Positions 10,607-16,093 of a stretch of 64,000 nucleotides of DNA are shown here, piece after piece; position 1 is the stretch's first letter; each line of letters begins with the position of its first letter. This stretch comes from Lophium mytilinum (Eukaryota > Ascomycota > Dothideomycetes > Mytilinidiales > Mytilinidiaceae): assembly GCA_010093605.1 (NCBI GenBank), contig MU004189.1, forward strand, positions 565,834 through 629,833, read 5' to 3'. Below the pieces are notes generated by a model. That model was not told the origin of the DNA. It did no database searches and saw nothing but the letters and a program-made list of their open reading frames with translations. A program made the position numbers and the translations under genes.

Positions 10607-12040
10607 TTGTCTAGATTCTGTTCGAAGCGAGGAATTTATCTTGATACAGAGCTTTCGAGCGGGTCGATTGTTCGGGACTTGGGAACGGGTCGTACGAGGA
10701 GCTGGGTCCAGCTGGGAGAAAGGGAGGAGTTCGTGTTCATGAGGGGCCAGGGTGGGGAAGATAATCGTGTTGTTGATGCTGCTTTGAAGCGGAAACGTGT
10801 CCAGGGGCCAGAAACGGCTGGGACTCGAGGAGAAGGGACGAAGAGGATGAGGGTGAGGGATGTTGGCGTGAGCGTGGAGGGGCACGATGAGCATATGATC
10901 ACGGCGAAAGAGAAGGCAGACACGCGTAGGAATTGGGATGCAGAAGAGGATTCGAGGTTCGACCCACCGCCTTCTGGACAAGAGCTGAGTGATTCGAAAA
11001 ACGAGAGGGCTGTGTTGGATAGACGAAGGGACCGGAGCAATAGCAAAACCACTGCTTTTGGGAGAACAACCTCTTCTTCGACCCATACAGCCACAACGCT
11101 TCCGCCCAATGATGGCCCGAATATCTCGACTAGATCCAGGCCAATTCCTACACCCACAAGCTCCAAATCGACCTCGGTATTCACCTCCGCGCCCACAAAC
11201 ACAAACATATCCACGACCTTCACGACTCCCATGGACACCACCCAACCCGTCACCCGCGCCGCCCTCCCCACCCGCAAGATATTCGACGCCTGGAACTCCT
11301 CCTCCACCGGCCACCAACGCGCCGAAAACCGCCTCGGCGGCAGCACCGATTGGCGGCACTCACGCCAAAAGAAACTCAGCGCGCAATTCACCAGCGGCAT
11401 GCACGGCGGCCGCCGCATCGCCGACACCGTGGGCGCCGGAAGCTTCACCTTCGGCAAAGACGGGCGGAAAGCAAACGGCGGGTGGGAAGCCGGCGCCAGC
11501 GGGCTCAGGGGCGCCGGGCAATCAGACGTGAAAAGCTGGCTCACTCAGGAGCGGAAGAGGGACACTAAGAGCGTTGTGCTTCTCGACAAACAAACAGATG
11601 ATGGCAATAGGGGGACGAGAGAGGAGGACCCAAACACCAACACCATTCCCGACCCTCAGCTCCCCCAGATCTTCACGTCGCTGACGTTCTACATTAATGG
11701 CTCCACCGCCCCTCTCGTCTCCGACCACAAACTCAAGCGCCTCCTCGCCTCCCACGGCGCGGCCCTCGCCCAGGGCCTCGCGCGCCGCTCCGTCACACAC
11801 GTCGTGCTGGGGACTGAGAACGCGCGGGGTGGGGTAGGCGGCGGGCTTGCGGGGACGAAGATCCAGAAGGAGGTCGCGCGGACGGGGGGCAAGGCGGTGC
11901 GCTTCGTGGGCGTGGAGTGGGTGCTGGAGAGCATCAAGGCCGGGAGGCGGTTGCCGGAGTCGCGGTTCGAAGGGTTGAAGCTGGCGCCGGAAGGGCAGGG
12001 GAGTGTGTTGGAGGCTTTTAGGGTGAGAGAAGGTGGGTGA
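10607..12040 (+). CDS. BRCT-domain protein, Rev1-like BRCT at the C-terminus (5' end uncertain)
   Basis: The frame is open from 10592 to the stop at 12038-12040. The first in-frame ATG is at 10739; 10607 is a TTG codon, so the true start is either 10739 or an ATG in an upstream exon (see the possible intron ending at 10614). The first ~220 residues are low-complexity and charged. A central block with FDAWNSSSTGHQRAENRLGG and TDWRHSRQKKLSAQF follows. The last ~110 residues form a BRCT domain: LTFYINGSTAP, LLASHGAALAQGL, SVTHVVLG, then VRFVGVEWVLESIKAGRRLP, which includes the conserved Trp. The spacing resembles the Rev1 BRCT more than the tandem BRCTs of checkpoint proteins, but no polymerase domain is present. 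A role in DNA repair or chromatin is inference. Confidence 0.75.
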   Translation: MSRFCSKRGIYLDTELSSGSIVRDLGTGRTRSWVQLGEREEFVFMRGQGGEDNRVVDAALKRKRVQGPETAGTRGEGTKRMRVRDVGVSVEGHDEHMITAKEKADTRRNWDAEEDSRFDPPPSGQELSDSKNERAVLDRRRDRSNSKTTAFGRTTSSSTHTATTLPPNDGPNISTRSRPIPTPTSSKSTSVFTSAPTNTNISTTFTTPMDTTQPVTRAALPTRKIFDAWNSSSTGHQRAENRLGGSTDWRHSRQKKLSAQFTSGMHGGRRIADTVGAGSFTFGKDGRKANGGWEAGASGLRGAGQSDVKSWLTQERKRDTKSVVLLDKQTDDGNRGTREEDPNTNTIPDPQLPQIFTSLTFYINGSTAPLVSDHKLKRLLASHGAALAQGLARRSVTHVVLGTENARGGVGGGLAGTKIQKEVARTGGKAVRFVGVEWVLESIKAGRRLPESRFEGLKLAPEGQGSVLEAFRVREGG

Positions 12041-12523: not shown

Positions 12524-13537
12524 CTAGACATCCATGCCCATGAAAATCCAGGAATCACTCGTAATCTCGTCTCCATTGGTCCATTCGTCGAGTGTCGTCA
12601 GGCTGAAACCAACCCAGCCAAGGTCCCTCGAAAGAGTGCTCATGGCGTGGGACTCGGTGTGTCGGTCCAGGCAGACGACGAGTTGGGAGCATTCGAACGA
12701 AGGAATGTCGCAAAGTTCGAGGAGGGCCATCAAGCTGCAGTCAGAATTAAATTCGATGATCCCAATATGTTACACGAGGGTCATGCACTTACCCAGGCTT
12801 GAGATCATTTCCAACGACCTGATTGTCAAAGAAAACGAACATAGCTCTCTCCCCATCCTTCTCCGCCACAAACCCTCTAAATCGAGTGCCCCCAACATAG
12901 TCGAACATTTCCATCCAGTCAGTCACCAGCCCTCCACTCTCGACAAAGCCATCCATTTCAGGTGACGGTAAACCACGCGTGCTGTGCGCATAGCGAGCGT
13001 GGGCGTTGATGTCGGAGCCAAAGGCGCTAGTAGTAATGTTGTAGTTTTGCACACCCGCCACAAGCGAGTCCTGATCGGCCGAGTTCCCCTCACCCAGGAA
13101 AACAGCCCTCAGTGTCCCGCAGAAGAGTCTCTCACACTCCTCCGTGATGGTGTATGCAGCCCCCCCTCTACGCGCCCTGCCACTGCGGCTCCCGTTGTCC
13201 GAAGCGGGGCGCTTGGTGGCGTGACTGTTGTAGGCGGCGAGGGGGGGACTCTGCGGTGGCGATGGCATTCCCTGGTGGAAGAGTCAGTTTTAACGTCTTT
13301 GTTGCGTGTCATAGCTTTGGGATTTGGGGAGTACTCACCGAGCTCACCTCAGGAACGCCAATCGACCCCGCCAGCCCCCGTAGTGGAGTAGTGGTATCCT
13401 TGGAGCGCGGTAGTGGCGGCGTCGACGACGTAGCAGCTGGCGCGGATGTTGGAGTGGGTGTCTTCGTAATTCATGGCGGCGGCGTGAGAATTACTACTAC
13501 TAGTACTAGAGTAGGGTTTGGAAGTAGGTTTCGCCAT
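12524..13537 (-). CDS. Ornithine decarboxylase antizyme, expressed by +1 ribosomal frameshifting
   Basis: Exons are 13537-13339, 13271-12793 and 12734-12524. Frame 0 runs 62 codons from the ATG at 13537 and stops at TGA 13351-13349, directly after TCC. Skipping the T of TGA puts the ribosome in the +1 frame (GAG GTG AGC TCG), which continues through both splice junctions to the stop; the total is then exactly 295 codons plus stop. The +1 product has the antizyme core: AVFLGEGNSADQDSLV, WMEMFDYVGGTRFRGFV, AMFVFFDNQVV, then LMALLELCDIP, FECSQLVVCLDR and LGWVGFSL. Antizyme binds ornithine decarboxylase monomers, targets them to the proteasome without ubiquitin and inhibits polyamine uptake. High polyamines raise frameshifting, which closes the feedback loop. 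An automated caller would probably break this gene at the in-frame TGA. The frame is open without ATG to 13720, so the initiator at 13537 is well supported. Confidence 0.93.
13339..13354 (-). promoter_or_regulatory. Programmed +1 frameshift site (TCC TGA) of antizyme mRNA
   Basis: On the minus strand the mRNA reads TGG CGT TCC TGA GGT GAG CTC G. The shift codon TCC (13354-13352) and the TGA (13351-13349) match the classic antizyme slippery context. A GTGAGT splice donor starts at 13338, only 10 nt after the stop, so any 3' stimulatory sequence in mature mRNA lies mainly in exon 2. Confidence 0.9.
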
Positions 13538-14203
13538 TGGTAAGGTTTGCCACGGTTGCGCTTGAAGGGGACTTCTGGGGTATCCGGTGTGTCTGTTGAC
13601 GGTGACTATGGAAGCCAAACGGTAGCGAGTTGAGATTGAGGATGTTGTGAAGCGTTGGTGGTGTTCAAGAGGAGCGGTGTCGTGGTGGTTGGGTTGGAGA
13701 TCCTGGGAAAGAAGGTGAGGTTAAAGTGGAGTCAAGTGCGCTCGGCTTTCTTTCGGTCCGCTCCTTTCGCCACTAGTTTACCAATCACGTCAATTCACCG
13801 TTCCTGACTACACCCTTCGATTTTCAGCTTCTTTTAGATACTGAAGTCTCAATTTCGTGCCAATTGTAGGTTTGTCTCAGAGCTCTAGAATGGGCAACAT
13901 GGTAGGAGTCAGAGAATCAAGGATTCCAGCAGCATACCTTTGTAGAGTCTTATTTATGTAGGCTGACGGGGGGCCCAGGCAAAGACGAGTCAAGGCATCC
14001 TACCCCTCAACAGATCTCCCCTGCAGAGGCATAGAGTCAGCGTCAACGTCAATCCCTTCTGTAAAACCATCATTAGTATATGAGAATCAAAGTTATTGAT
14101 AACTTATACCTACGGTCAAGCACAAAGCCGTGTCCGATTTCCCACTGCATCATCTATTCAAATTTCTTCTTTTTCCATTACATCTGTCCCCATCTCATCT
14201 AAT

Positions 14204-16093
14204 ATGGCAACCTCTCTGCTCATATCCCTCTTCTTGATACCATGCACATTCCTCGCCTGGAACATCTACACCTTCTCTATCAACTACTCCCGCGCCCGTA
14301 AAATTGGCCTCCCCATCATCATCCGGCCCTTCGACCAATTGAATCCACTGTGGATCCTAGTCGGCCGCTTTCTCCTCCCCATCTTCGAGCGTGTCCCCTT
14401 CGGCTCTGGAAACTTCACACGGTTCTGCCGCCACGGCTTTGAAATTCGTGACACCTACCACTGGGTCGACGAGTTCGGCGACGCATTCGTCACAGTATCG
14501 CCAGCTAAGATCTGGCTTTGTATCGCCGATCCAGACACCATATCTGAGATTATCGCGCGCAGCCGGAAAGAATTCGATCGGCCAATGGAGACCATGGAGA
14601 TGCTGAATGTGCTTGGGAAGAATGTTAGTTCGGTGCAGGGCGCGGAGTGGCAGCGGCAGCGCAAGATTGTGAACATTCCGTTCAATGAACAGAACAATCG
14701 CATCGTCTTTGATGAGGCGTTGAGACAGGGTGCTGGGATGATTAAGTATTGGACGTCGCGGCCTGGAAATGTTATGGACGATGTGCTGGAGGACTCGAAG
14801 ACTTTTACGTTGAATGTGCTCTCTGGTGCTGGGTTTGGCAGATCGGCGCCTTTTGCTGGTTTTGATGAGCAGCAGAGAAGTACGGACAGTGGCTTTGCGA
14901 GGAAGAATAGGGAGAACTTGTCCACGATACTGGATTACATTCTCTTAATCTTGGTGGTTGGTCCTAGGTTGCTGACTGCCCCGTTTATGCCTAAAGCCGT
15001 TAGTAGGATCGGACAAGCAGTCTCAGATTTCAAGGAGTATGTAAGCAACATCGTATCTGAAGAGAAGAGTTTGATACGACAGGGAAAATCATCTGCTTCA
15101 AGCCTTGTTGCTTCCCTCATTCGAGCTTCTGAGCAAGCTAGCGACAAAGAAGGCGCCAAAGCAGCACTGTCCGAGAGTGAGATATTCGGGAACATATTTA
15201 TCTTTCACTTTGCGGGATACGACACAACCGCATTGTCACTATCGACGGCATTCGTGTTTCTTGCGGCGTGTCCTGATGTCCAGGATTGGATATCAGATGA
15301 GATCCGCTGTGTCTTGCCGAACGACGATCAATCGACTTGGAACTATGCAGAAGCCTTTCCAAGATTCAAGCGCTGTGTAGCCGTGTTGGTATGAAGTTAT
15401 TCCATTTGATTTCGAAGCATGGCAGTATTTTATGAGCATTCTTCCTACCTGTACTTGTTACCAAATTTTTGCACATCTCATTCATTCAAGTCTCTTCCGA
15501 CTTCCTCCCTTTTCTTTCGCCTAAACATTTCTCTTGCCTCCAAGCTAACCAAACACCACCAGTACGAAACACTCCGCCTCTACAACCCAACCCTCGGCTT
15601 CCTCAGAATGTCCATGCTCTCCACCCCAACCACCCTCACAATCAACAACCAGCCCTACACGCTTCCGCCAAAAACGATCTTCAATGTCAACTCTATGGCT
15701 TTAGCAACGCACCCACGCTACTGGGGCGCCGACTCTCTCGCGTGGAATCCGAAACGCTGGACCACTGCCACGAATACCACGTCTAGCTCGTCCGCTTCCA
15801 CCACCACTGCCACCATCAATGCCGAAACCCTGCTCGCACCCCCAAAAGCCACCTTCCTCCCCTGGGCCGACGGTCCGCGCGTGTGTCCCGGGAAGAAGTT
15901 CGCGCAAGTCGAGTTCGTGGGACTGATGTGTGCGCTGTTTCGGGATCACAGGGTAGAGCCGGTTCTAAAGGCTGGAGAGAGCATGTCCGAAGCGCGGGAG
16001 CGGACGTTGGCAGTCGCGAGAGACCAGGAGATGTATTTGCTTATGGAGATGCGGAGGCCAGGGGATGCGAAGTTGAAATGGTTGAGGCGGTAA
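14204..16093 (+). CDS. Cytochrome P450 monooxygenase
   Basis: Two exons, 14204-15388 and 15563-16093, give 571 codons plus stop. I chose the ATG at 14204 because MATSLLISLFLIPCTFLAW is the usual N-terminal membrane anchor; the frame upstream has no ATG with a better context. Family motifs: WQRQRKIV (C-helix), FHFAGYDTTA (I-helix oxygen-activation motif), YETLRLYNP (K-helix ExxR, beginning exactly at exon 2), WNPKRW, and the haem loop WADGPRVCPGKKFAQVEF with the axial Cys. The first aromatic of the haem signature is Trp rather than Phe, which I also know from other fungal P450s. A Ser/Thr-rich insert of about 25 residues separates WNPKRW from the haem loop. Substrate unknown; no biosynthetic partner genes are adjacent. 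It shares a 666-bp divergent upstream region with the antizyme gene. Confidence 0.92.

Follow-up and report, generated by a model that had tools for sequence, protein, structure and literature searches.

A filamentous-fungus antizyme gene with a putative +1 recoding site at UCC-UGA and a predicted hairpin around it

The minus-strand gene at positions 12524..13537 of the window (the whole stretch of 64,000 nt that was analysed) is an ordinary antizyme gene, of a kind already known. With a probability of roughly 0.94, it codes for the ornithine decarboxylase (ODC) antizyme of a filamentous fungus, a protein whose synthesis would require ribosomes to slip by +1 at UCC-UGA. On the level of sequence, we observed the anatomy of the gene, the match to the antizyme domain, a single antizyme locus found in the genome, an ODC-type gene, and a +1 register between the two ORFs; the shift itself, the response to polyamines and the binding and degradation of ODC we infer from what is known of the family.

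The preliminary description of this DNA identified the locus as an antizyme gene and called it a clear case of programmed frameshifting. The identification was borne out by a match to the antizyme family PF02100 across all 114 of its 114 profile positions (148.4 bits). As for the frameshifting, it is supported by the domain, the motif and the register, though these are all features of the sequence; programmed +1 frameshifting is very likely the right reading here, but it does not make a new kind of system. The gene is one more example of an antizyme, useful mainly for annotation. As of 2008, standard pipelines were described as unable to recognise programmed frameshift sites, and antizyme CDSs as in need of expert inspection (excerpt of PMC2375905).

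Gene anatomy and putative frame transition

The genome has 43.2 Mb, and the antizyme gene lies on the minus strand of the window. Its features are given below; all splice sites are sequence predictions.

13339..13537, minus strand: exon 1, with ORF1 (62 codons from AUG 13537) and the initial bases of ORF2, up to the stronger donor
13472..13474, minus strand: second in-frame AUG of ORF1, preceded by GCCGCC; the UGA is 41 codons on
13349..13360, minus strand: putative recoding site UGG-CGU-UCC-UGA, with shift codon UCC at 13354-13352 and the ORF1 stop UGA at 13351-13349
13342..13347, minus strand: candidate alternative splice donor GTGAGC (preceded by GAG), 9 nt upstream of the stronger donor, frame-preserving
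13272..13338, minus strand: predicted intron 1, 67 nt, GTGAGT...CACCAG, with a branch-like CTGAC close to its 3′ end
12793..13271, minus strand: exon 2, the bulk of ORF2, in which the ODC_AZ domain begins
13266..13268, minus strand: first AUG in ORF2's own frame; in the mRNA that uses the donor at 13338 it is 16 nt past the U of the UGA
12735..12792, minus strand: predicted intron 2, 58 nt, GTAAGT...CTGCAG
12524..12734, minus strand: exon 3, the C-terminal part of the ODC_AZ domain, terminating in TAG

ORF1 ends with GAT TGG CGT TCC, followed by TGA at 13351-13349, 62 codons from ATG 13537; a UGG stands two codons ahead of the shift codon UCC (TGG CGT TCC TGA, 13360-13349). Translated without a shift, the spliced message stops at this UGA. 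With the T of TGA skipped, the protein continues as W-R-S-E-V-S-S-G, the reading is open as far as the TAG at 12524, and exons 1, 2 and 3 together make 295 codons and a stop (coding length 889 nt, the skipped base counted). What had been said earlier of this transition holds: frame 0 of exon 1 does end in TGG CGT TCC TGA after 62 codons, only a +1 shift joins ORF1 to the antizyme core, and the total length closes under the +1 reading. The earlier description gave no strand for the exon, and mentioned neither the intron that follows nor the second in-frame AUG.

The window contains the 12-nt recoding motif TGGYGNTCCTGA once, against an expectation of 0.07. Genome-wide (43.2 Mb) there are 37 occurrences, versus 45 for a reversed control pattern; being not enriched in the genome, the motif was rejected as evidence when taken by itself. 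What gives TGGYGNTCCTGA weight is its position: it lies where the exon preceding the antizyme ORF ends, in the register that connects the two.

The donor of intron 1 (GTGAGT, preceded by TCG) is located 10 nt after the UGA. Should splicing occur at 13347 instead of 13338, the frame would be kept and the product would have 292 residues, three fewer. The candidate donors 13347 and 13338 thus stand in tandem on the minus strand, 9 nt apart and directly past the putative recoding stop, with three residues gained or lost.

Considering translation starts, position -3 is C at the first AUG (13537), while GCCGCC stands in front of the second one (13474). Of the two, 13474 is in the better context, and a shorter antizyme form may start there, by analogy with mammalian antizyme 1, which has two start codons. 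Among the AUGs located from 500 nt before ATG1 to 200 nt after it, only 13537 and 13474 are in frame 0; the remaining ones, at 13900 or above, start ORFs of at most 10 codons. We also note that frame 0 is open for 61 codons further upstream of AUG 13537, and that AUG 13474 overlaps, as AUGA (13471-13474, minus strand), with the upstream stop of the ORF2 frame, TGA 13473.

The match to PF02100 (ODC_AZ) was obtained with the joined exons 2 and 3 (E 9.1e-44, profile positions 1-114 of 114; the curated cut-off of the family is 24.2 bits), and it occupies residues 182-295 of 295. The same region appeared in an intron-blind genome search as two pieces, with 80 and 55.5 bits. For the ORF1 peptide, no Pfam family was matched up to E = 10. 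Since the PF02100 match is wholly within ORF2, the domain match alone does not prove that ORF1 and ORF2 are joined. The genome profile search, in which family counts are lower bounds for large families, yielded one antizyme locus (two exon matches) and one ODC-type gene (PF02784, E 7.2e-78).

Searches of other collections added little. The exon 2 product had 4 pattern matches in viral contigs and 17 in prokaryotic/genome contigs, with no relatives in either, and the exon 3 product had 5 pattern matches and no relatives in viral contigs; these collections consist of viral and prokaryotic DNA, and the zero counts are uninformative on fungi. A phmmer search of the joined protein against 177635 sequences of solved structures gave two weak matches, to cordon-bleu (E 0.059 and 0.26, residues 18-84), which we judged to be chance. 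Mammalian antizymes, whose structures have been solved, did not come up in this search with a single sequence.

Possible routes to translation of ORF2, with and without a shift

ORF2 could in principle be translated with no shift at all, either from the AUG at 13268, reached by re-initiation or leaky scanning, or from a near-cognate codon upstream of the site. AUG 13268 shares the frame of ORF2 and has G at -3. Further upstream this frame is closed by TGA 13473, and between that TGA and the shift site it contains no AUG; it does contain the near-cognate codons CTG 13374 and ACG 13422, 13431 and 13467. It also speaks for such routes that the Pfam domain begins as far downstream as residue 182 of 295. 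On the other hand, two frame-0 AUGs come before 13268, and efficient re-initiation so soon after an ORF of 62 codons is unusual, which speaks against the route via AUG 13268. Neither re-initiation nor near-cognate initiation has any need of an exact antizyme recoding motif, and one is present at the site. We consider it very improbable that ORF2 is made in this way, although minor products could be contributed by these routes.

A conventional intron that removed the UGA would also make the frameshift unnecessary. We enumerated introns of 40-450 nt whose donor falls after ATG1 and before the UGA, with acceptors down to about 13050, scoring donors by a simple count of consensus positions rather than by a trained splice model. 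As many as 118 GT/GC...AG combinations would excise the UGA yet leave the frame open. However, a donor with 5 of 6 consensus positions occurs in just one of them (GTAATT; a 329-nt intron with the unpromising acceptor GTAGAG), all others scoring at most 4, whereas the two good donors, GTGAGT (6/6, at 13338) and GTGAGC (5/6, at 13347), are situated just after the UGA and both need the +1 shift. An intron of this type is even less probable than translation of ORF2 from its own start.

The least probable alternative, close to negligible, is that a one-base error of assembly or sequencing created an apparent frameshift: the error would need to fall exactly at TGG-CGT-TCC-TGA, and the chance that an arbitrary 200-nt segment carries TGGYGNTCCTGA on the correct strand, estimated from the genome count and before any requirement on frame, is ~9e-5.

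Under the preferred reading, a +1 slip at UCC-UGA, ribosomes would read 62 codons, until UCC is reached and the UGA occupies the A site. Termination would follow in many cases, releasing a short ORF1 peptide; some ribosomes would slip by +1, read GAG and carry on through exons 2 and 3, producing the antizyme of 295 residues. The slipping fraction would rise when polyamines are high; the antizyme would bind ODC monomers and deliver ODC to the proteasome, and polyamine synthesis would fall, which would make a negative feedback loop. Unshifted termination might subject the message to nonsense-mediated decay, because the UGA is 489 nt (480 nt with the donor at 13347) ahead of the exon 2-exon 3 junction.

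Predicted RNA structure around and 3′ of the site

In the message spliced at 13338 (form B, as opposed to form A, which uses the donor at 13347), a 60-nt stretch around the site has a predicted folding energy of -37.7 kcal/mol. Within a span of 71 nt, a hairpin of 25 pairs is predicted, 21 of which link exon 1 to exon 2. Its arms are as follows.

13348..13375, minus strand: predicted 5′ arm of the hairpin, which encloses the shift site and the stop codon
13248..13271, minus strand: predicted 3′ arm in exon 2, forming 21 of the 25 pairs; the other 4 are with 13339-13342 in exon 1

The inner stem runs for 13 bp without interruption; the longest such stem among 1066 non-overlapping 60-mers from the window's plus strand has 12. 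It persists when folded in a context of 320 nt, and there the CGU-to-UGA stretch is paired with a probability of 1.0 (to two decimals). The unspliced 60-mer folds with -15.9 kcal/mol; in a longer fold of the pre-mRNA, the same exon ends are paired across intron 1.

We compared the hairpin of form B with several kinds of controls. Dinucleotide shuffles were as stable in 0 of 5000 and in 5 of 32000 cases, synonymous sequences (20000 per set) in 3 cases with all codons free and in 179 with the recoding site fixed, and none of the 12788 60-mers of the window was as stable. When sequences of the window preceded by YAG were used as the tail, 2 of 3471 were as stable, namely its own tail and a trivial antisense copy, and 0 of the other 3469. 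The hairpin of form A is weaker: as stable were 77 of 5000 and 517 of 32000 shuffles, 1027 (site fixed) and 700 (all codons free) of 20000 synonymous sequences, 12 of the 12788 window 60-mers and 16 of the 3471 tails, its own included. Since the hairpin was found by scanning 55 + 56 windows in the two splice forms, along with seven spans per form, the shuffle result should be discounted about a hundredfold. The predicted hairpin is extreme in most controls; in the strictest one, with the recoding site fixed, it ranks only at about 1%.

One could speculate that the recoding site in this lineage is controlled by a long hairpin that becomes complete only after removal of intron 1, since most of the pairing (21 of 25 pairs) is between the end of exon 1 and the beginning of exon 2; we regard this as doubtful rather than probable. 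If it were true, splicing would license a polyamine-sensitive recoding structure, unlike the pseudoknots and nascent peptides of which the reviews consulted speak. In a weaker version, the pairing may act in the pre-mRNA, where it would bridge intron 1.

Once a ribosome has UCC in its P site, ribosome geometry requires that the 5′ arm is already melted and the stop codon covered; therefore, when the shift takes place, the predicted hairpin could not serve as a usual downstream roadblock. An earlier action is conceivable, with the ribosome pausing on its way to the site. A similar puzzle has been raised for the mammalian pseudoknot located 3 nt from the site (excerpt of PMC5009743). In the passages of open literature that were searched, the surveys by Ivanov and colleagues (2000, 2007) excepted, no site-enclosing hairpin is described in an ascomycete antizyme. 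Conservation of the hairpin, if it could be shown, would make it a novel type of antizyme recoding element and raise the question of how a structure already melted by the ribosome on the site influences the shift.

Beyond the site, the 60 nt starting at +3 after the UGA contain no unusually stable structure by pseudoknot-free folding (z +0.5 for one splice form, +1.0 for the other), therefore nothing in these predictions is positioned like the vertebrate pseudoknot. Of the seven 3′ spans folded per form, those with ends within 90 nt have z between -1.0 and +2.1, and those reaching 120-300 nt between -2.0 and -0.3. One stem-loop is common to the longer folds:

13156..13254, minus strand: second predicted stem-loop, confined to exon 2; depending on the donor, it starts 18 or 27 nt past the UGA

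Taken alone, with ends chosen to fit, this stem-loop has -50.3 kcal/mol, and 44 of 5000 shuffles are as stable (z -2.8); so are 6 of 12782 window 99-mers, its own overlaps included. We consider it a weak candidate for a 3′ stimulator.

Comparison with known antizymes, and adjacent genes

Fungi have a single antizyme, according to an excerpt of PMC3982577. The closest counterparts by description are those of Botryotinia fuckeliana and Emericella nidulans, likewise filamentous ascomycetes; +1 frameshifting is general to the family. The part of PMC3432380 that deals with these two species reports, citing Ivanov et al. 2000, antizyme genes identified without experiments there. The UCC_UGA found here is the majority antizyme shift site, and a UGG two codons before the shift codon is described as strongly conserved (excerpt of PMC5009743).

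The SPA gene of Schizosaccharomyces pombe, likened here from a review table, also codes for a frameshifting antizyme. Just upstream of its site it has P-A-G-G-A, versus G-A-G-G-V here, a comparison in which the columns are uncertain (Table 2 of PMC5009743, in excerpt). Around codons -8 to -5, where antizymes are expected to encode Gly/Pro residues, our gene has G-A-G-G, with a placement in the columns of the same excerpted table that is not exact.

Mammalian antizyme 1 shares with the present gene the +1 shift at the last codon of ORF1 (putative here), two in-frame start codons and the upstream UGG (excerpt of PMC5009743). There, however, a 3′ pseudoknot starts 3 nt after the site, whereas here the predicted hairpin encloses the site.

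The antizymes of Agaricomycetes (Coprinopsis, Ganoderma) are similarly built of two ORFs with a +1 shift (excerpts of PMC4505036 and PMC9604110). For Ganoderma, an ORF1 of 66 aa and a full length of 333 aa are given in the excerpt of PMC9604110, compared with 62 and 295 here. According to the excerpt of PMC4505036, the 3′ structure of Agaricomycetes starts 19 nt downstream, compared with 18 or 27 nt for our predicted stem-loop; the shift codon, in contrast to UCC here, is UUU, accompanied by a nascent-peptide stimulator. Saccharomyces cerevisiae OAZ1 is a +1 antizyme as well, with the site GCG_UGA_C and very high intrinsic shifting that is repressed, not stimulated (excerpt of PMC5009743).

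Eight ORFs of the window were scanned with Pfam, one of them giving no match; UTP20 was scanned in part (1666 of 2188 aa). An ORF with a BRCT domain (PF16589, E 9.5e-07) is located at 10607-12040 on the plus strand, convergent with the antizyme gene. Divergent from it is a cytochrome P450 gene at 14201-16093 (plus strand), with an apparent intron between two long ORFs; the match to PF00067 (E 2.4e-22) comes from the scanned part, 14201-15391. The region 32937-55299 contains conserved eukaryotic genes, by Pfam Rad21/Rec8-like, CwfJ-like, UTP20, ATG9 and COG6.

The 600-nt flank of the ODC-type gene is AT-rich (GC 0.39), with TpA/ApT of 1.56 and (CpA+TpG)/(ApC+GpT) of 0.56; the respective ratios for the window overall are 0.69 and 1.23. 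By common thresholds, the dinucleotide pattern of this flank resembles that of repeat-induced point mutation.
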